Positions 31,018-44,558 of a stretch of DNA of 64,000 nucleotides are shown here, piece after piece (the first letter of the stretch is position 1; the number at the start of each line of letters is the position of its first letter). Made by a program: the position numbers and the translations under genes. A model generated the notes under the pieces. That model was given only the letters and a program-made list of their open reading frames with translations. It made no database searches and was not told where the DNA came from. Source of the DNA: Rhizohabitans arisaemae (GTDB lineage Bacteria; Actinomycetota; Actinomycetes; Streptosporangiales; Streptosporangiaceae); contig NZ_BLRH01000001.1 of the NCBI RefSeq assembly GCF_025996515.1, positions 1-64,000 of the forward strand, written 5' to 3'.

Positions 31018-31095
31018 GCCGTTCGCTCTCCGACCGTTGATCGTCGTTTGCCCCCACGGTAATGGAGAGTGTTATTCAGTATCTAGTACACAGTA

Positions 31096-31135
31096 TTCAG
31101 TGTGTGACATTGTATTTCTCCAGTATCACACTGAA
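31096..31135. promoter_or_regulatory. Inverted repeat upstream of gcvPA, candidate regulator site
   Basis: Perfect 9-bp arms TTCAGTGTG (31096-31104) and CACACTGAA (31127-31135), 22 bp apart, inside an AT-rich block with further short repeats (AGTATCTAGTAC, AGTATTCAG). This is about 80-120 bp before the gcvPA start. A GntR or promoter role is inference. Confidence 0.45.
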
Positions 31136-31250
31136 CACCGGCGATACAGCATTGCTCCTTTCAGAATCCGCTACACGACCGCCCCTGGGATGACAGCGAG
31201 GATTCCCACCGATTCCCGATGCGATCGGCAGCGGCCGGCGTGCCGTACAG

Positions 31251-31302
31251 GTGATCGTTGTGGCGTGCGCACCCCAGCGGGTGCAGACAGCACAACGATC
31301 AC
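31251..31302. repeat. Dispersed near-palindromic repeat, copy C
   Basis: 52 bp with perfect outer arms GTGATCGTTGTG and CACAACGATCAC. The inner part pairs GTGCGCACCCC with GGGTGCAGAC imperfectly. It is preceded by CCGGCGTGCCGTAC, which also precedes copy D, so the conserved unit extends at least 14 bp on that side. Confidence 0.8.
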
Positions 31303-31384
31303 CCGGTATCCGATGGCCGCCACGCCAAGCCGACCTTGATCGACCCTCCGGGCCCGAGTGGCCCCAGCCGGCGTGCCGTACGGA

Positions 31385-31435
31385 TGATCGTTGTGGCGTG
31401 CGCACCCCAGCGGGTGCAGACAGCACAACGATCAC
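31385..31435. repeat. Dispersed near-palindromic repeat, copy D
   Basis: 51 bp, identical in the whole palindrome to copy C and 133 bp away from it. Both are between gcvPA and the serine hydrolase gene, in non-coding DNA. Confidence 0.8.
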
Positions 31436-31483
31436 CCTCGTGTGCGGGCTGCGACCCCGCGGCCCTCGGGGCCGCTGCCGGGC

Positions 31484-32854
31484 TCAGGCCACGCGGGGGT
31501 TGGCTCGGCCGGTGTGCAGGAACCCGATGCGGTCCCCGCCGACGAAGGCGACGACCGAGTGCTCCCCGCCCCGGGGTTCGGCGAAGGCGAAGGTGTCGCC
31601 GCGCAGCCGCAGCAGGCGGAAACCCTGCGGCCCGCCGCCGTACTCCGCGGTCGCGCCGAGCGGGGTCGCGGTGAGCCGGAGCGAGGCCGGACCGTCCTCG
31701 GCGACCTCCCAGGAGACCACGTCGGACAGGTAACGCCCGGTGTACCGGGCCGCGTCCACGGGAAGCGGCTCGGCCGGAGGGACCGCAGGCACCGGAGCCC
31801 GGACCCCGGCAAGCTCCTCGATCACCGGGTGGAGCAGGCCGCGCACGATCGGCCCCGGGTCGCCGCCGTTGGTGAGCAGCACGGCGGCCACGTCCGCCCC
31901 GGGCACCGTGAGCAGCGTCGCCTCGTGCCCGGGGGTGGTGCCGCCGTGTGCCGCGACCAGGCCGCCCTCCCATCCCCGCAGCTCCCAGCCGAGGCCCCAG
32001 GACGACGCCCGGCCGAGGTCCGGTAAGTCGACGCGCGGCTCCCGCATGAGCGGCGCGAGCTCCTCCGGCAGCAGGCGCACGCCGTCCGGGGAGAGGCCGC
32101 CGCGCAGATGCGTGCGGGCGAAGTCCAGCAGGTCGCGGGCGCGCATGGCCAGACTCGACCCGGCGGGCTCGTTCGAGCGCATCAGCGACCAGACGGGCAG
32201 CGGCTCCCCGGCGGCGTGCCCGACCGCGGTGCCGTACAGGATCGCCTCGTCGGCGCAGGTCGCGATGTGGGTGAGCCCGAGCGGGGCGGCGATGTGGGTG
32301 TGCAGGGCCGTGCCGTACGGCGTGCCGCGCAGCACCTCCACGATCCGGCCGAGCACGCAGTACCCGGCGTTGTTGTACGACCACATGGCGCCCGGCCGGA
32401 AGAGCTGCGGCGTTCCGGCGAGAAGCGCGACCAGTCTCTCCACCGCGTCGTCGCCCCGGCCGGTGTCGGCGAACACGTCGCCCTCGAACCCGGCGGTGTG
32501 GGTGAGCAGCGCCTCGATCGTGACGCTCGCGGCCGCCTCCTCGTCCTGGAGTGCGAATCCGGGGAGGACCGACCGGACGGTCTGGTCGAGCCGGAGCCGC
32601 CCCTCCGCGACGAGCTGCATGACCAGTGTGGCGGTCCACACCTTGGCGATCGAGCCGACCTGGAACAGCGAGTCGACACCCGCCGGATACCCGGTCCGGG
32701 TGTTGAGCACCCCGGTGGCGGCCTCGGTCACGACGTCCCCACGGCTGAACGCGACGGCGGCGCCGGTGATCCCATGCCGGTCGGCGAGCTCGGTGAGCCT
32801 GGCTCCGAGTTCGCCGCCGCCTGCGCCGCGGGCCCGTACCGTGCCGCCGGTCAT
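31484..32854 (-). CDS. Serine hydrolase, class-C beta-lactamase/D-aminopeptidase type
   Basis: Protein of 456 residues. The catalytic SxxK is S68-K71 in FQVGSIAKVW, the YxN motif is in MWSYNNAGYC and the third motif is HGGTTPGH. A C-terminal beta-rich domain (about 350-450), starting DAARYTGRYLSDVVSW, is as in D-aminopeptidase/Pab87-type enzymes. It probably hydrolyses peptides or esters, perhaps with D-residues, rather than beta-lactams. No signal peptide is apparent, so it is cytoplasmic. ATG 32854 overlaps the S9 peptidase stop. A paralogue with the same domain order lies at 38241-39539. Confidence 0.9.
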   Translation of the reverse strand: MTGGTVRARGAGGGELGARLTELADRHGITGAAVAFSRGDVVTEAATGVLNTRTGYPAGVDSLFQVGSIAKVWTATLVMQLVAEGRLRLDQTVRSVLPGFALQDEEAAASVTIEALLTHTAGFEGDVFADTGRGDDAVERLVALLAGTPQLFRPGAMWSYNNAGYCVLGRIVEVLRGTPYGTALHTHIAAPLGLTHIATCADEAILYGTAVGHAAGEPLPVWSLMRSNEPAGSSLAMRARDLLDFARTHLRGGLSPDGVRLLPEELAPLMREPRVDLPDLGRASSWGLGWELRGWEGGLVAAHGGTTPGHEATLLTVPGADVAAVLLTNGGDPGPIVRGLLHPVIEELAGVRAPVPAVPPAEPLPVDAARYTGRYLSDVVSWEVAEDGPASLRLTATPLGATAEYGGGPQGFRLLRLRGDTFAFAEPRGGEHSVVAFVGGDRIGFLHTGRANPRVA

Positions 32855-34929
32855 CGCCCCGCTCCGAAAGCCGGGTCGATCCGGTAACCGGCCGGAGGCT
32901 CCGCGCCGATCAGGTGGCGGGTGAGGAAGTCCCACTGGCGCCGCAGCACGTGCGCTTCGGCGGCGCCGTAGCCGTGCGTGGCGTTCGGCACCATGAGCAT
33001 CTCGAAGTCCTTGTCCTGCGCGATGAGCGCGTTGACGACGCGAAGCGACAGGCCGGGGTGGCAGTTCTCGTCCATTTCGCCGAAGAGCAGGAGCAGCTTG
33101 GCCCGGAGCCGCCCGGCCAGCGGGAGGGGCGACCCGGCGGTGTAGTCCTGGGGCGGCGGACCCTGGTAGGTCTCCCCCCAGATCGCGTAGTAGCCGCTGT
33201 GGTCGTGGTCGCCCGCCGAGGAGATCGCCGCGGTGAAGAACCCCGGGTGGCGGAGTACGGCGTGCAGCGCGGCGGCGCCCCCGGCGGAGTGCCCGGTCAC
33301 CCCGACCCGGGCCAGGTCGAGGTACGGCCGTTCGGCCGCGAGCTGCCTGATCGCCGCCACGTGGTCGTCGATGCCGACGGCCGCGGCCGGGTCGCCGTAG
33401 GAGGCGTCGTGGAAGGCCTTGGACCGGTACGGCGTGCCGCGGCCGTCCATGACGACGACCGCCAGGCCGAGCTGCGCCAGCATCGGGGCGCCGCCGACCG
33501 GGTCGAGCAGGAACGGGTCGATGGAGTAGCCGCGCAGCGTGGTCCGCAGCTGCCGGCTGATCTGCGGCCCGTTGTAGATCGAGTCCAGGATCGGGTAGCT
33601 GCCGGAGGCGTCGAAGTCCGCGGGCAGGTGGAGCAGGCCGTACAGGTCGGTCACGCCGTCGGCCGCCTTGACGGTGAACGCCTCCGGCGCCCGGTACCCC
33701 GCCTGCTCCAGGGCGGAGACGTCGGCGCGTTCCAGTTCGGCGACGACCGCCCCGTCGGCGTCGCGCAGGACGGTGACCGGGGGCGTGTCCGGCGCCGCGT
33801 GGGTGTCGACGAACCGGAGTCCGTCGGGGGACGCGACGACGTGGTGGTCGGTGTCCTCGGGGGTGAGCACGACGACGCCGGTCCCGTCCAGGTCGGCCCG
33901 GCACAGCCGGCGGTGGTAGGGGTTGGTCCCGTGGCCGCCGGAGAGGAAGTAGACCCGCCGGGCGCCCCAGTCGAGGTGCACCAGGTCGCGGACGAGCCAT
34001 TCCCCTTCGGTGACGGCGTTCTTCAGCTCGCCCCGCTCGTACCGGTACAGGTGACCCCAGCCGGAGCGGTCGGAGTACCAGAGCACCTCGTCGCCGTGGG
34101 CGCGGACCAGGGGGAACTCCACCACGGTCGGCGAGGAGTTCATGATGGTTTCGCCGGCCTCCTCCAGGACGACCTCGGCAGCGCCGGTCCGCGCGTCGAT
34201 CCGGTACAGCCGCGCCCCTTGATAGCCGCGGGTGCCGTACAGCATCCAGAGGGTCTCGTCGTCCTCCCACCAGACGCGCCCGATGCCGAGCGGGGCGTCG
34301 TGGGTGAAGGTCAGCGGCTCGATCACGACGTCGACCCGCTCCCCCGTCTCCGCGTCGAAGACCACCAGCCGGAAGACCGGCAGCGGGTCGCCGGGCATCT
34401 CGTAGTGGACGGTGCGGACCAGCGGCCGCGGGCTCCCGTCCGGCGGGCACGACTGGGTCATGGTGAGCGTCGGCACGTGCCGCTGGTCCACTCGGTGGGT
34501 GACGAACCGGCGCCCGTCCGGTGCCCACTCCACCTGCGGCGAGGTGGCCATGCCGTTCTGTACGGCGACGATCGGCAGCGCGCTCTGGTCGCTCGGGAGC
34601 CCGTAGGCGTGGCCGGGCTCGCCGTCGGCGGTGATCGGCGCGCCGTTCACCGCCAGGTTCCCCGCCGTGACGGTCACGGTGTACTCCCCGCCGGGGGAGA
34701 CCCGCATCCCGGTCACCTCCGCGGGCAGGGCCGGCTCGCCGCCCGGGTCCTCGATCTCCCACCGCTCCCCCGTCGTCGCCGACACCCGGACGCACCGGGG
34801 GCCTTCGAGGGTGTTCACCCGGTACCGGAAGGTGTCCCCCTCCCAGATCGGGACCACCGTCGCCCGGTGGATCAGGGCGTCCTGGCGGGCGATGTACAGC
34901 GCCTCGGCGCGTCGATAGTTCTCGTTCAC
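32851..34929 (-). CDS. S9-family prolyl oligopeptidase (DPP-IV-like)
   Basis: Protein of 692 residues. The N-terminal part (about 1-420) reads like an eight-bladed beta-propeller, with repeated W-D and YRIDARTG-type strands. The C-terminal alpha/beta-hydrolase domain has the nucleophile in VGVTGHSAGGAAALHA (Ser near 546), the acid in LLLFGEMDENCHP and the histidine in VPNATHGYG. It cleaves dipeptides from, or short, peptides. It has no signal peptide. GTG 34929 overlaps the MFS stop as GTGA, and its own stop overlaps the serine hydrolase start, so importer and two hydrolases are coupled. Confidence 0.93.
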   Translation of the reverse strand: MNENYRRAEALYIARQDALIHRATVVPIWEGDTFRYRVNTLEGPRCVRVSATTGERWEIEDPGGEPALPAEVTGMRVSPGGEYTVTVTAGNLAVNGAPITADGEPGHAYGLPSDQSALPIVAVQNGMATSPQVEWAPDGRRFVTHRVDQRHVPTLTMTQSCPPDGSPRPLVRTVHYEMPGDPLPVFRLVVFDAETGERVDVVIEPLTFTHDAPLGIGRVWWEDDETLWMLYGTRGYQGARLYRIDARTGAAEVVLEEAGETIMNSSPTVVEFPLVRAHGDEVLWYSDRSGWGHLYRYERGELKNAVTEGEWLVRDLVHLDWGARRVYFLSGGHGTNPYHRRLCRADLDGTGVVVLTPEDTDHHVVASPDGLRFVDTHAAPDTPPVTVLRDADGAVVAELERADVSALEQAGYRAPEAFTVKAADGVTDLYGLLHLPADFDASGSYPILDSIYNGPQISRQLRTTLRGYSIDPFLLDPVGGAPMLAQLGLAVVVMDGRGTPYRSKAFHDASYGDPAAAVGIDDHVAAIRQLAAERPYLDLARVGVTGHSAGGAAALHAVLRHPGFFTAAISSAGDHDHSGYYAIWGETYQGPPPQDYTAGSPLPLAGRLRAKLLLLFGEMDENCHPGLSLRVVNALIAQDKDFEMLMVPNATHGYGAAEAHVLRRQWDFLTRHLIGAEPPAGYRIDPAFGAGR

Positions 34930-36314
34930 TTCGGGTTGACTCCGATCGCGTGGTCGATCAGGGCGTCGAGATCGCCCATGAGGGTGGTGCGCAGGGTGCC
35001 GATGAGCAGCGAGCCGCCGACGGCGGGCAGGAGCAGCAGGAGCAGCGCCCCGCGCAGGTCGAGGAAGGCGGTCGCCAGGGCGAGCAGGCCGGCGCCGATC
35101 AGGCCGCCGAAGGCGACGATCAGGCCCAGGGTGGCCATGGCGTGTGCCCGGTCTTCGGGCCTGACCACCGACAGGCCGCCGATGAACAGACTCGGCCCGA
35201 TCACCGCGAGCAGCGCCTGGCCGAGGGCGAGCAGGGGCAGCGCGAACCAGACGCCGGGGACGAGGGCCGAGGCGGCGAAGGCCGAGGCCGCCAGCGCGAG
35301 CGCCCCGCCGCAGAGCATCATGAAACGGCCGGGACCCGCGCGGTAGGCGGCCTCGGCCCGCCCGCCGAACAGGGCCAGCGCCAGGATGGAGACCGCGGCC
35401 GCCGCACTGGAGAAGAGCCCGCGCTGCCCGGCGGAGAGCCCCCACTCCTCGTCCAGCAGCGAGGAGAGCACCACCCCGTACGGCACGGCGAGCGCGCCGA
35501 TCGCGGTGAAGCCCAGCGACATCCGCCGGACCGAGCGGATCCGCATCACCCGCCGGACCGTGGCGAAGAACCCGGGCAGATCGCCGTGACCGGTCGGCGG
35601 GCCGGTCCCGGCCCGCGAACTCAGCTCGGCCACGTCCCAGCGCCCGAGCGCCGGCTCGCGCAGCCGGGTCGCGTAGAGGCAGGCGAGGACGGAGATCGCG
35701 CCGAGCACGACGAACACCCCCCGCCAGTCCAGGCCGGGCCAGGTGACCAGGCCGGCGATGAACAGCGGGACGAGGATGCCCGCCAGCGGGGTGGCGGAGG
35801 AGTAGAGCGACATGATCCGCATCCGCGCTCCGGGCGGGTAGGCGTCCATGAGCAGCGGCGGATGGAGCAGCGCCACCGCGCCGGTGGTGGCCCCGTTGAC
35901 CAGCATCAGCGCGGCCAGCGAGCCGGGCCCGTGCACCATGCCGGTGAAAAGGGTGGTCGCGCTCCAGGCGAAGCCGGTGGCGAGCGCCAGCCGTACCCGG
36001 TGCGGGTAGCGGCGGAGCATCGCGGCGATCGCGAACGGGGCCAGGCCCGCGGCGACGCCCTGGACGCCGATGACGCCGGAGATCGTGCCGAGGTCCACCC
36101 CGAGGTCGGCGGAGATCTCCGGGGTGAGCACGGTGAAGACCTGGGTCTGGAAGCCGTCGACGACGGCGAGGAGGGTGAGCCCGGCCATGAAGGTGAGGCC
36201 GGTGCCGTGTTCGCGCAGGGTGCGCAGGAGCGGCGCGGTGTCGTTGGCTCTGCCCGTCACCCCGAGCACGGCCCGGGCGTCCTCCCGGGACAGCGGGGTG
36301 GATGGATCGTTCAT
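34926..36314 (-). CDS. MFS transporter, 12 membrane helices
   Basis: Protein of 462 residues with about 12 hydrophobic helices and a polar N-terminal stretch of 40 residues. The first helix holds TFMAGLTLLAVVDGFQTQVF, and the central loop about 215-250 is basic (MRIRSVRRMS). It resembles MFS proteins without an obvious drug-efflux signature. It is the first gene of an operon with two peptide hydrolases, so import of a peptide-like substrate, or export of a product, is plausible. A 9-bp inverted repeat lies 83 bp upstream of ATG 36314, in the region shared with the divergent two-component system. Confidence 0.88.
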   Translation of the reverse strand: MNDPSTPLSREDARAVLGVTGRANDTAPLLRTLREHGTGLTFMAGLTLLAVVDGFQTQVFTVLTPEISADLGVDLGTISGVIGVQGVAAGLAPFAIAAMLRRYPHRVRLALATGFAWSATTLFTGMVHGPGSLAALMLVNGATTGAVALLHPPLLMDAYPPGARMRIMSLYSSATPLAGILVPLFIAGLVTWPGLDWRGVFVVLGAISVLACLYATRLREPALGRWDVAELSSRAGTGPPTGHGDLPGFFATVRRVMRIRSVRRMSLGFTAIGALAVPYGVVLSSLLDEEWGLSAGQRGLFSSAAAAVSILALALFGGRAEAAYRAGPGRFMMLCGGALALAASAFAASALVPGVWFALPLLALGQALLAVIGPSLFIGGLSVVRPEDRAHAMATLGLIVAFGGLIGAGLLALATAFLDLRGALLLLLLPAVGGSLLIGTLRTTLMGDLDALIDHAIGVNPK

Positions 36315-36396
36315 GCGGCCTCCTGGTGAGGGACTTCGAGGTTCCCGCCGGGAGTACGGCCGCCACCAGCCGCGGAAGATCTGTACGGGCATCGCC

Positions 36397-36421
36397 AAAG
36401 TAGGGTGGGTGCCCCTACTTT
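36397..36421. promoter_or_regulatory. Candidate response-regulator operator, site 1
   Basis: Perfect arms AAAGTAGGG (36397-36405) and CCCTACTTT (36413-36421) with a 7-bp spacer, between the divergent MFS operon and kinase gene. A site with the same GTAGGG/CCCTAC core occurs at 39623-39642 before the second serine hydrolase, at almost the same distance from the start codon. Confidence 0.7.
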
Positions 36422-36479
36422 CGTCGGTGTTCGCCCAGGTGAGGGGGGAAATCGCCGGATCGGCGGGTACCGTGGTCGC

Positions 36480-37604
36480 ATGCCGTCCCACACCTCCGCC
36501 CGCAAGCTGGCCGGGGACGTCCTCCTCGCCTGCGCCGTGGGCGCGGTGGGCGTGGCGAGCGACCTGGTGATCAGCGGGGTGGTCCCGCTGGTGCCGGTGC
36601 CGGACTTCCCCTGGCGGGGGGTCCTGATCCAGGTGATCGCGGCGGCGCTGCTGCTCGTCCGGCGGAGCCACCCGCTCCAGGTGGCGCTGCTGACGATCCC
36701 GCTCGCGTATCTGGAGGCACCCGTCGCGGTGCCCTTCGCGCTCTACTCCCTCGGCGCGCACCTGGGCCGGCGCCGGCTCCTCATCGGCGTCGCGGCCGTG
36801 ACCATGCTGGCGATGTCGCGTGTCTGGGAGGCGCAGACCCTGGCGACGGCGATCCAGCTGATCTCCGTCAGCGGGCTGTTCACGATCCCGGCGACCCTGC
36901 TCGGCCTCTACATCGACAGCACCCGGCGGCTCAACCGGGCGCTCGCCGAACGGGCCGAGCGCGCCGAGGCGGAGCAGCGGCTCCGGATCGAGCAGGCCCG
37001 GGCCGAGGAGCGCACCCGGCTCGCCCGTGAGATGCACGACGTGGTGACCCACCATGTGAGCCTCATGGTGCTCCAGGCCGGGTCCCTGCGGATGTCCGCG
37101 CCGACGAAGGAAGTCCGGCGGGCCGCCGAGGAGCTGCGCGCGACCGGGCGGCGTGCCCTGGACGAGTTGCGGGAGGTGGTCGGCGTCCTGCACGACGCCG
37201 AACCGGTCGAGCTCGCCCCCCAGCCCACCCTGGTCGACCTGTCCCGGCTGGTCGCCGAGTCCGGCGTCGCGGCCGAGCTCACCCAGGACGACGGCATCAC
37301 CGTCTCGGCCGCGCTGGGCCGCACTGCCTACCGGGTCGTCCAGGAGGCGCTGACCAACGCCCGCAAGCACGCCCCCGGCGCCCCCGTCCGGGTCCGGGTG
37401 AGCCGGGACGGCGCGGGGCTGCGGGTGAGCGTCAGCAACCCGGCCGCCCCTCGGGAGAGCCGGCCGGTGATGCCGCCCTCGTCGCGGACCGGGCTGCTCG
37501 GGCTGCGGCAGCGGGTCGAGCTGGTCGGCGGCGCCTTCCACGCGGCGCCCACCCCCGAGGGCGGTTTCGAGCTGACGGCGAGCCTCCCGGCGGTGACCCG
37601 GTGA
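36480..37604 (+). CDS. Two-component sensor histidine kinase
   Basis: Protein of 374 residues. Residues 1-150 contain four to five membrane helices. A coiled coil (RLNRALAERAERAEAEQRLR) leads into the HisKA_3 domain with the phosphorylated His in REMHDVVTHHVSLMVLQAG. The HATPase domain has VVQEALTNARKHAPG and SRTGLLGLRQRVELVGG. The start is ATG 36480. The gene overlaps the response regulator by 4 bp. Position between two serine-hydrolase units that share an operator-like repeat suggests that this pair senses a peptide or envelope signal and controls them. Confidence 0.92.
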   Translation: MPSHTSARKLAGDVLLACAVGAVGVASDLVISGVVPLVPVPDFPWRGVLIQVIAAALLLVRRSHPLQVALLTIPLAYLEAPVAVPFALYSLGAHLGRRRLLIGVAAVTMLAMSRVWEAQTLATAIQLISVSGLFTIPATLLGLYIDSTRRLNRALAERAERAEAEQRLRIEQARAEERTRLAREMHDVVTHHVSLMVLQAGSLRMSAPTKEVRRAAEELRATGRRALDELREVVGVLHDAEPVELAPQPTLVDLSRLVAESGVAAELTQDDGITVSAALGRTAYRVVQEALTNARKHAPGAPVRVRVSRDGAGLRVSVSNPAAPRESRPVMPPSSRTGLLGLRQRVELVGGAFHAAPTPEGGFELTASLPAVTR

Positions 37605-38251
37605 TCCGGGTGCTCCTCGTCGACGACGAGCGGCTGGTCTGCGCACATCTGCGGGCGATCCTGTCCCGGGCCGGTGACCTCGAGGTGGTCGGGGAGGCCT
37701 ACGACGGCGCCGAGGCGGTGGAGGCGTGCCTGCGGCTGACGCCCGACGTGGTGCTGATGGACATCCGGATGCCCGGGGTGGACGGGCTCACCGCCGCCGA
37801 GCGGATCTGCGGTGTGCCCGGGGCGCCGAAGGTGATCATGCTGACCACCTTCGACGTGGACGAGTACGCCGTACGGGCGCTGCGGGCCGGGGCCGTCGGT
37901 TTCCTGCTCAAGGACACCGACCCCGAGGATCTGATCGACATCGTCCGGGTCGGGGCCGAGGGGCACGCGATCGTCTCCCCCGCCCTGACCCGGCGGCTGA
38001 TCAACGCCTTCGCCGCCGCCGAACCCGCCCGGGACCAGGCGCGGAGCCTCGTCGCCGAGCTGACCGAACGCGAACGGGAGGTGCTCACCTGCCTGGGGCA
38101 GGGGCTGTCCAACGCGCAGATCGGCGGACGGCTGTTCCTCAGCGAGACGACGGTGAAAGGGCACGTCTCCCGGCTGCTCGCCAAACTCCGCTGCGCCAAC
38201 CGCACCCAGGCCGCGCTGCTCGCCTACGACGCGGGTCTGGTCAGCCGCTGA
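37601..38251 (+). CDS. NarL/LuxR-family response regulator
   Basis: Protein of 216 residues. The receiver has D8/D9, the phosphoacceptor D54 in VVLMDIRMPG and lysine in FLLKDTDPED. The LuxR helix-turn-helix holds LTEREREVLTCLGQGLSNAQ and ETTVKGHVSRLLAKLRC. GTG 37601 overlaps the kinase stop (GTGA). Its 3' end overlaps that of the convergent serine hydrolase by 11 bp. The likely targets are the MFS-peptidase operon and the convergent hydrolase, through the GTAGGG-CCCTAC repeats. Confidence 0.94.
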   Translation: MIRVLLVDDERLVCAHLRAILSRAGDLEVVGEAYDGAEAVEACLRLTPDVVLMDIRMPGVDGLTAAERICGVPGAPKVIMLTTFDVDEYAVRALRAGAVGFLLKDTDPEDLIDIVRVGAEGHAIVSPALTRRLINAFAAAEPARDQARSLVAELTEREREVLTCLGQGLSNAQIGGRLFLSETTVKGHVSRLLAKLRCANRTQAALLAYDAGLVSR

Positions 38252-39539
38252 CCCGCCGGGCGGCGAACGCCCCGTTGAGGAAGCGCGTCGCGCGGCCGTC
38301 CGGGCCGGGGACGAAGGCGACGTCCCACCGGTGCATGCCGCCGAGCCGGTCGTCGGCCGGCTGGAACCGGTGGTCGCCGAGCGGCAGCAGGTCGCAGGTG
38401 AGTCGCTCCCCGTCCGATTCGGCGGTGACCGCGAGGCCGCCCGGCCGCTCCGTCACCGCGTAGCGCGTGTCGTAAGTCCGGTAGACACCGGTGTAGCGGG
38501 AGGCGTCCACGGGAAGCCCGAGGCCCGGCTCCGCCCGTACCGGCACGGCCAGGCCCAGCAGGTCGGCGCAGACCCCGGCGAAGACCGCGTCCGCGAAGGG
38601 GTAGCCCTGCGACGGGGTGTTGACGGTCACGGCGAGCGCCGTGTTCCGCTCCGGGATCCAGACCAGGGTGGAGGAGCCGCCGAGGTTGGTGCCGCCGTGG
38701 CCGTACACCGCGGTCCCGTCCCAGACCTTCCGGTACGGCCCGGCGCACCACTGCTCGGCGAACCACCGGGCCTCGACCTCGGTGTGCGGGGTCTGCATCG
38801 TCGCGACCGCGTCCGGCGACAGGACCCCGGCGCCGCCGCCCAGGATCATCACGCCGAACCGGGCGAGATCGCCGGCGGTGGCGCACAGGGTGCTCCCGGC
38901 CGGGCCGAGGCCCCGGGAGAAGCACCACGGCCGGACCACCTCGCCGCCGACGGTATGCCCGACGGCGACCCGATGATAGACCAGGTCCTCGTCCCGGCTC
39001 ACGGTCCGGGCCAGTCCCGCCGGGCCGGCCAACCGCCGCTGCAGCGCCTCGTCCCAGGTCAAGCCGGTGAGGCGCTCGATCAGCAGCCCGGACACGACCG
39101 TCGAGGCGTTGGAGTAGCCGAACCCCTCCCCCGGCGCGAAGACCGGGGGGATCTCGGCCAGAAGCTCGGCGTAGCGGGCCACGCAGTCGTCGCCGCGCCC
39201 GGTGTCGACGTACGGACCGTTGTCCAGACCGCTGGTCATCGACAGCAGGTGCCGGGGGGTGAGCGTCCCTTCACCGGGGAGCCTCAGCTCCGGCAGATAC
39301 TCCGAGACCGGGGCGTCCAGGTCGGCCCGTCCCTCGTCCACCAAGCCGAGAACGAGCGCCGCGGTGTGCAGTTTGGCGGTGGAGCCGATCTGGAACAGCG
39401 TGTCGGGGGTGACCGGCGTGCCCAGTTCGGCGTTGGCGACACCGGTCGCGTACTCGGTGAGCTCCCCGTCCACCGCGATCGCCAGCTGGGCGCCGGTGAT
39501 CCGCAGTCGCGCCGCGGTCTCGGCCAGCAATTCGTCCAT
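38241..39539 (-). CDS. Serine hydrolase, beta-lactamase/D-aminopeptidase type, second copy
   Basis: Protein of 432 residues, same architecture as the enzyme at 31484-32854. SxxK is S53-K56 in LFQIGSTAKLHTA, YxN is in GFGYSNASTV and the third motif is VYGHGGTNLGG. The C-terminal beta domain starts DASRYTGVYRTYDTRY. The two proteins are paralogues with only moderate identity. ATG 39539 is the start; the frame is open upstream to 39632, but that region contains the operator-like repeat. It is a separate transcription unit, convergent with the two-component genes. Confidence 0.9.
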   Translation of the reverse strand: MDELLAETAARLRITGAQLAIAVDGELTEYATGVANAELGTPVTPDTLFQIGSTAKLHTAALVLGLVDEGRADLDAPVSEYLPELRLPGEGTLTPRHLLSMTSGLDNGPYVDTGRGDDCVARYAELLAEIPPVFAPGEGFGYSNASTVVSGLLIERLTGLTWDEALQRRLAGPAGLARTVSRDEDLVYHRVAVGHTVGGEVVRPWCFSRGLGPAGSTLCATAGDLARFGVMILGGGAGVLSPDAVATMQTPHTEVEARWFAEQWCAGPYRKVWDGTAVYGHGGTNLGGSSTLVWIPERNTALAVTVNTPSQGYPFADAVFAGVCADLLGLAVPVRAEPGLGLPVDASRYTGVYRTYDTRYAVTERPGGLAVTAESDGERLTCDLLPLGDHRFQPADDRLGGMHRWDVAFVPGPDGRATRFLNGAFAARRVSG

Positions 39540-39622
39540 GGACGCCACTGTCGCCGGGGTCGCGCGGGCCGGACAAGGCCGTCCGCCCAGGACACGCCTT
39601 TCGCCGGCCCGATCCGTGCTTT

Positions 39623-39642
39623 CGTAGGGCACGCCCCCTACG
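39623..39642. promoter_or_regulatory. Candidate response-regulator operator, site 2
   Basis: Perfect arms CGTAGGG (39623-39629) and CCCTACG (39636-39642), 6-bp spacer, 84 bp upstream of the second serine hydrolase start. It has the same core as site 1 at 36397-36421. Confidence 0.65.
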
Positions 39643-41050: not shown

Positions 41051-44516
<3,466 letters not shown>

Positions 44517-44558
44517 GACAGCCTCCTTCTGCCGGGAGACTCGGACCGCGCGCATCAT

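Follow-up and report, generated by a model that had tools for sequence, protein, structure and literature searches.

A DosR-like two-component system and its predicted paired operators in a transporter, peptidase and hydrolase locus of Rhizohabitans arisaemae

The locus and the operator between its divergent operons

The DNA analysed here (hereafter the window) is a stretch of 64,000 nucleotides, positions 1-64,000 of the forward strand of contig NZ_BLRH01000001.1 of the soil bacterium Rhizohabitans arisaemae (assembly GCF_025996515.1). At 31,484-39,642 it holds a two-component system (TCS), consisting of a sensor histidine kinase (HK) and a response regulator, together with genes for a transporter of the major facilitator superfamily (MFS), a DPP-IV-like peptidase (DPP) and two beta-lactamase-fold hydrolases (SH1 and SH2), and this work deals with the putative operators through which the pair would control these genes. 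The MFS, DPP and SH1 genes all read leftward, each overlapping the next by 4 bp, and the kinase and regulator genes, both rightward, overlap as well (Table 1).

The kinase scores 56.9 bits for HisKA_3 and 36.2 bits for HATPase_c, above the gathering scores of 24 and 26.4, and the regulator 98.9 bits for Response_reg and 70.0 bits for GerE, above those of 30.2 and 23.5, which makes them a HisKA_3 sensor kinase and a NarL/FixJ (LuxR-type) response regulator. Partial matches to the NCBIfam profiles of UhpB and MadS-type kinases lie in the kinase core, with scores far below the curated cut-offs (70.7 vs 408 and 44.4 vs 500). By protein sequence, the best structural match of the regulator is VraR (141 bits), followed by NarL (132.4 bits); both have the same domain architecture, a likeness taken to indicate the broad family only. 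SH1 and SH2 both carry the SxxK, YxN and HxG motifs of the S12 fold family (PF00144), to which alone they are assigned, their scores of 67.0 and 60.8 falling far short of the NCBIfam class C beta-lactamase cut-off of 415. SH2 has a single hydrophobic segment at residues 314-336 and none at the N-terminus. DPP keeps the GHSAG nucleophile motif, has bacterial DPP IV structures as its structural relatives and is free of hydrophobic segments according to a simple hydropathy scan; for the MFS transporter, no close solved structural relative was found (best E 0.0015).

Table 1. Genes, predicted boxes and promoter-like elements of the locus (window coordinates).
Feature	Position	Strand	Remarks
SH1, S12/beta-lactamase-fold hydrolase	31484..32854	-	Pfam PF00144, 2.2e-54; third gene of the MFS-led operon; SxxK, YxN and HxG motifs
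DPP, S9/DPP-IV-like peptidase	32851..34929	-	Pfam PF00326, PF00930; second gene of the MFS-led operon
MFS transporter	34926..36314	-	Pfam PF07690, 4.8e-22; leads the three-gene operon MFS-DPP-SH1
Left box, MFS/HK operator, CATCGCCAAAGTAGGG	36390..36405	+	weaker box; 23 bp between its core centre and the right box's
First palindrome of the original prediction	36397..36421	.	covers parts of both MFS/HK boxes
Right box, MFS/HK operator, ACCGACGAAAGTAGGG	36413..36428	-	strongest box in the window
Putative -10 (TACCGT), kinase promoter	36468..36473	+	6 nt before ATG; TAGCGT-type hexamer conserved
Sensor histidine kinase	36480..37604	+	HisKA_3, HATPase_c; hydrophobic N-terminal part (hydropathy)
NarL/LuxR-type response regulator	37601..38251	+	Pfam PF00072, PF00196; recognition helix ETTVKGHVSRLLAK (alignment with DosR/DevR)
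SH2, second S12/beta-lactamase-fold hydrolase	38241..39539	-	Pfam PF00144, 8.8e-61; reads leftward toward the regulator
Putative -10 (GACAGT), SH2 promoter	39547..39552	-	aligns with GAGACT-type hexamers in orthologues
Putative -35 (TTGTCC), SH2 promoter	39571..39576	-	17 bp from box 2, as in seven orthologues (by eye)
SH2 box 2, GCCGGCGAAAGGCGTG	39593..39608	-	degenerate; distance to box 1 is 21 bp, in orthologues 22; rank 14, outside matrix
SH2 box 1, CCCTACGAAAGCACGG	39614..39629	-	degenerate; window's second-best box, rank 2, outside matrix; orthologous position
Second palindrome of the original prediction	39623..39642	.	arm 39624-39629 within box 1; arm 39636-39641 unconserved

The original prediction, made from the letters of the window alone, was that two GTAGGG-type palindromes at equal distances from their genes mark a regulon of this response regulator. 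Both palindromes are indeed present, AAAGTAGGG-N7-CCCTACTTT at 83 bp from the MFS start codon (36314) and CGTAGGG-N6-CCCTACG at 84 bp from the SH2 start (39539), and the kinase and regulator genes lie between them. The pattern GTAGGG-N4..9-CCCTAC has these 2 matches in the window and 0 in 100 dinucleotide-preserving shuffles. Throughout the genome (8.33 Mb in 63 contigs) it occurs at 4 places; since about 5.6 are expected from base composition alone and the same pattern read backwards matches 8 times, the palindrome is not in genomic excess. The third match, with N4, lies behind a gene which we take to be rho-like, and the fourth, with N6, within a predicted open reading frame. What stands out is that two palindromes fall at promoters of one 8-kb locus, which is unlikely by chance: the probability of a second palindrome in a given promoter was estimated post hoc at about 4e-5 (one 200-bp promoter, two spacings).

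A comparison with related genomes gave the sites a different shape. A first scan of named genomes with the kinase found no relative, and among 394 genomes sampled from the class the only close kinase orthologue was that of the window's own genome. Within the family, 11 of 341 genomes, the window's included, had a kinase match at E 1e-80 or better; the carriers with names are Nonomuraea pusilla, N. typhae, N. sediminis, three Microtetraspora and Sinosporangium siamense. The MFS, kinase and regulator genes adjoin each other in all 10 other cluster genomes, DPP is present in 9 (not in locus L032), SH2 adjoins the regulator in 7 (not in L023, L030 and L032) and SH1 occurs in 6 (not in L024, L030, L031 and L032). 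In L032 (genome G330) the kinase N-terminus is also missing, the regulator matches in two pieces and no DPP match was found. The regulator of another genome (G190, L026:10752-11389) likewise matches in two pieces, here in different frames, and therefore looks frameshifted or misassembled.

The motif CCTACTTTCGT is invariant in all 10 alignable MFS/HK intergenic regions, which come from the window and the 9 related genomes with an intact region. The left half of the operator reads GTRGG in 8 of the 10 loci, GTGTG in L030, and is unrecognisable in L031. It is a diverged form of the palindrome that relatives conserve at the MFS site; the exact palindrome was matched in 10 of 385 loci, all of them from the window's own genome. 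The dyad RGTRGG-N9-CCTACTTTCG with at most one mismatch gave 12 rows in 9 of the 11 cluster genomes, every one at the MFS/HK operator, and the 10-mer CGAARGTAGG was found in 7/7 cluster loci vs 1/73 others among 80 loci with a DPP homologue. A longer form, AARGTRGG-N9-CCTACTTTCG, was tried as a finder of a wider regulon and abandoned: in the window's genome it returned only the MFS/HK site (on both strands) and one match with 3 mismatches, and at up to 3 mismatches it had fewer matches than the reversed control (10 and 7).

Judged by this conservation, the MFS-side site is a real operator. Since it is equally upstream of the kinase, the kinase-regulator operon would be a target too, and the retention of an operator between the kinase operon and its divergent target in 10/10 alignable loci, as expected of an autoregulated divergent locus, suggests that the pair probably regulates its own synthesis. 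The agreement between 83 and 84 bp is best seen as a coincidence and not as a sign of shared control, because the distance from the MFS start to the right box varies from 64 to 106 bp in the 7 loci in which the MFS alignment begins at residue 1 (L023, L029 and L030, where it starts later, were left out).

The box at related kinase-regulator pairs and the recognition helix

The exact dyad was also found in one other genus of the family, at 9 sites in 5 genomes. There, 8/9 sites adjoin an FtsX/MacB-type permease and 5/9 a related kinase; these kinases are 39-44% identical, and the regulator is 56-57% identical in the two loci where it was found. No DPP match was found at these loci, and a distant S12 homologue occurs in L216 only. 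Of the four sites without a kinase, one (L220) lies on a stretch that ends soon after it. In the other three (L219, L221 and L223) the exact dyad precedes an ABC-FtsX operon and the stretch retrieved showed no kinase homologue, which suggests a second target of the same regulator, with the reservation that L221 begins at a contig start, so that its kinase could be missing from the assembly piece. In total, 24 genomes outside the cluster match the dyad with at most one mismatch, of which the five with exact matches and G031 were followed up; none of the listed genes or motifs was found at the G031 locus.

When non-cluster kinase homologues were chosen by protein alone, 6 of 7 had a box of at least 13 bits upstream. 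Among the kinase paralogues of the window's own genome this score was reached by 2 of the 29 scored, that is, those that came with their locus out of 43 listed. The core ACnAAAGT lies within 900 nt upstream of kinase homologues in 49 of 101 loci of a first set and in 28 of 60 held-out loci, while a control pattern of equal composition occurs in none of either (0/101 and 0/60). From 48 sites in 45 loci with a VSR-type helix, the consensus is CCGAC-[G/C]AAA-GTCGG, a near-palindrome with a GAC-N4-GTC core, whose ACnAAAGT part was fixed by the search pattern. A VSR helix with a preceding Gly or Ala was accompanied by a box of at least 12 bits in 17/17 new loci, against 2/8 for the rest, in a search run at E 1e-45 where 1e-50 had been named beforehand.

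The variable third base of the core followed the first residue of the recognition helix. In the first set, helices starting with Glu went with ACG in 31/31 loci and those starting with Val with ACC in 12/14, of the remaining two one having ACG and one being mixed. In the held-out set, the Glu loci had 5 G and 1 C and the Val loci 11 C, 1 G and 1 mixed; a single Ile locus had C. Over the 18 unmixed Glu and Val loci held out, the rule gave p = 0.004. The Fisher test on the first set excludes the mixed locus L308, that on the held-out set the mixed Val locus and the Ile locus, and the helix comparisons omit loci with no regulator in reach (4/101 and 9/60, respectively). Two kinase-regulator pairs elsewhere in the window's genome (L234 and L235, on contigs C34 and C33) have CCAAAGT-type boxes upstream; their helices are of the Val type, for which the rule leads one to expect such boxes.

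These results raise, at about even odds, a more general picture: a large actinobacterial group of NarL-type TCS would use a DosR-like box in which the first helix residue reads the third base of the core (Glu for G, Val for C), the unit of kinase, regulator and box being kept while the cargo is exchanged. With a similar, evenly balanced confidence, the cargo would be FtsX-type permeases in some lineages, and an MFS transporter, a peptidase and hydrolases in that of the window. No such regulator or box is described among the literature matches listed (titles and abstract openings, most subscription journals lying outside the search), and the available excerpt of the CrsR paper reports no conserved motif (PMC12623338).

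Binding of the boxes by the cluster's own regulator is inferred from sequence, which gives some room to another, for instance global, regulator that would own the boxes and have the kinase-regulator pair merely as one of its targets. Such ownership is highly improbable. In the cluster genomes the dyad with at most one mismatch is confined to the MFS/HK operator, which disfavours a global regulator; the kinase-regulator pair is the common part of loci that are otherwise differently loaded; and the box base covaries with a residue of the pair's own recognition helix.

Tandem boxes upstream of SH2 and promoter elements

The site before SH2 was examined with a matrix built outside the cluster, from 32 sites of other kinase-regulator loci. 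Over about 128,000 ranked positions of the window, the right box of the MFS/HK operator came first (23.4 bits), SH2 box 1 second (12.9 bits) and SH2 box 2 fourteenth (7.1 bits). In nine orthologous loci the MFS/HK box was first in 9/9, and SH2 box 1 ranked 2 to 4 in the seven having it (2 in L028). Since the best matches in ten mononucleotide-shuffled windows reach 11.6-17.3 bits, the score of box 1 does not by itself reach significance, and the box owes its credibility to where it lies. Two tandem boxes repeating every 22 bp are present at seven orthologous SH2 promoters, followed after 17 bp (by eye) by a TTGA-type -35 element. The window has a degenerate version of this tandem at 39593-39629, with 21 bp between the boxes and the same 17 bp to TTGTCC, and box 2 and box 1 together score 14.1 bits. 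Searched with no mismatches, the tandem pattern gave five rows, all at SH2 promoters, one in each of five genomes.

The second palindrome overlaps this tandem without coinciding with it: its inner arm is part of box 1 and its outer arm is unconserved. As an operator in its full form it was rejected, being present in 0/7 orthologous SH2 promoters and scoring at best 4.5 bits as an inverted pair of half-sites. Four SH2 homologues located elsewhere in three genomes had neither ACnAAAGT nor CGAARGT within 300 nt upstream. One of the homologues outside the cluster (L177 in G253, 65% identical) follows a different, repeat-rich stretch (AGCGTACGGCATACGG...) and may for that reason be under other control.

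Taken literally, with the regulator binding GTAGGG-N6/7-CCCTAC palindromes at a fixed 83-84 bp from the start codon, the original prediction is very unlikely to be right. In its favour are the presence of both palindromes in the window and the low chance, calculated after the fact, of finding the second in the SH2 promoter. However, among the 385 loci compared the exact form is restricted to the window's own genome, the distance on the MFS side drifts among relatives, and GTAGG is one arm of the conserved box, with the outer SH2 arm left to vary and the inverted pair scoring poorly. The broader claim of direct control of both units fared better and is supported by the comparison, provided that the tandem boxes and not the intact palindrome are taken as the SH2 operator. 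It overlooked the kinase-regulator operon and the extension of the MFS unit to three genes.

A more serious competitor, though still an unlikely one, is that control by the regulator is limited to the divergent MFS and kinase operons and that regulation of SH2 has been lost in R. arisaemae. The degenerate boxes of the window, set beside the exact tandem of five relatives, speak for such a loss; the second rank of box 1 among all positions and the unchanged 17 bp between box 2 and the putative -35 speak against it.

On the kinase side, 7 of 10 loci have 27-28 bp between the box and the putative -10; the other 3, one of them the window, have 44-45 bp. Only a few bases separate the end of this -10 from the start codon, so that the kinase mRNA is probably leaderless. 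On the MFS side, the left box and a TCGTG-type hexamer are about 25-26 bp apart (sequences counted by eye). The position of the boxes upstream of the putative -35 and -10 elements, and not over them, favours activation. Repression by the regulator is improbable for the same reason, even if sequence alone does not give the direction of control.

Comparison with DosR and the proposed regulation

The nearest parallel is the well-studied dormancy regulator DosR/DevR of Mycobacterium tuberculosis, a NarL-family protein with a nearly identical helix stretch (TVK-x-x-VSRLLAKL....RTQAA). Its box TTSGGGACTWWAGTCCCSAA, as given in PMC2275270, is likewise near-palindromic with a GAC-N4-GTC core. The boxes of the window and the family, CCGAC-[G/C]AAA-GT(C/A)GG, share the GAC-N4-GT geometry but do not fit the DosR sequence: the flanks are CCGAC...GTCGG here and GGGAC...GTCCC there, and the centre is [G/C]AAA instead of TWWA. 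The predicted box would work in the manner of a DosR box without being one. Of the three core DNA-binding residues of DosR named in PMC5999986 (K179, K182 and N183), only K182 is kept (ETTVKGHVSRLLAKL vs EKTVKNYVSRLLAKL), position 179 being Thr and 183 Gly. The kinase and the regulon differ from those of the DosR/DevR system as well.

According to PMC3029386, binding of DevR to paired boxes is cooperative, and one such case is a pair of divergent promoters. Paired boxes occur here too, 21-23 bp apart and including a divergent promoter region, and would be used in a similarly cooperative way. The apparent inverted repeat of the MFS/HK operator and the apparent direct repeat before SH2 may then be one and the same arrangement, a pair of near-palindromic dimer sites spaced by about two turns. 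In PMC3029386 the proximal DevR box overlaps the -35 element, whereas here the proximal box ends upstream of the putative -35.

We consider it probable (about 0.8) that the locus encodes a dedicated DosR-like TCS which controls its own operon, the MFS-DPP-SH1 operon and SH2 through paired near-palindromic boxes. The membrane kinase (HisKA_3) would phosphorylate the DosR-like NarL-family regulator, whose dimers would bind 16-bp near-palindromic boxes arranged in pairs, the two members of a pair being used cooperatively. From the box pair that separates the kinase-regulator operon from the divergent MFS-DPP-SH1 operon, both would probably be activated, and the system would thereby regulate itself; the second pair would act on SH2. 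Predicted direct control of these units by the regulator is well supported by the cluster itself, the conservation of the boxes and their constant position with respect to promoter-like elements, the boxes at other pairs and the covariation of helix and base.

Several observations weigh against this scheme. At the divergent operator, one cluster genome (G240) has a single recognisable MFS/HK box and another (G330) has lost the intergenic region altogether, and when 2 mismatches are allowed the dyad falls to background level in the 11 cluster genomes, being rarer than the reversed control. Upstream of SH2, the degenerate boxes of the window score within or below the range of the best matches in shuffled windows, and the tandem pattern misses them even at 2 mismatches; with 1 mismatch, 8 of its 9 matches lie away from SH2. 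By the outside matrix most orthologues have a weak box 2 as well (9.4 bits in L027, elsewhere low or outside the two best matches listed). The outside matrix was not blind, because the core with which its sites were collected came from the cluster box. The covariation of helix and base may reflect few evolutionary events, the loci being closely related. Finally, the association of the VSR helix with the box is weak in the held-out set (20/30 vs 8/21, p = 0.04), and outside the family it did not pass the threshold set (7/14 vs 5/24, p = 0.067). The looser core rule (ACnAAAGT) was framed after the data of the VSR test had been seen and became weaker when held out; the Glu/Val rule fared better there, on 18 loci in its two classes.

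As to function, we suggest with low confidence that the system responds to a membrane-active or peptide-like compound, which the MFS protein would transport and which would be hydrolysed intracellularly. This seems the likeliest role because the hydrolases and the peptidase have no N-terminal hydrophobic segment and related pairs adjoin MacB/FtsX-type permeases. Starting from a single motif, the analysis arrives at a predicted regulon in which each box has an exact position, and it offers a testable helix-to-base rule for a common actinobacterial regulator group. Such a rule, if true, would be of use for inferring the regulons of many uncharacterised TCS from their genomes.

Some features of the surrounding DNA may be mentioned. 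An Rfam search of the window gave no match at the gathering threshold. Just past the end of the SH1 gene lies an 83-nt direct repeat (31222-31304 and 31355-31437, 92% identical), each copy of which holds an inverted repeat with arms of 25-26 nt. Another inverted repeat, GTATTCAGTGTG-N22-CACACTGAACAC at 31093-31138, is possibly an operator; it lies upstream of what is presumably a glycine-dehydrogenase-like gene. On the other side of the locus, two adjacent genes at 41051-42676 and 42684-44558, which we take from their sequence to encode secreted peptidases, have nearly the same 3' end (98% identity over about 550 bp), which points to a recent duplication or gene conversion.

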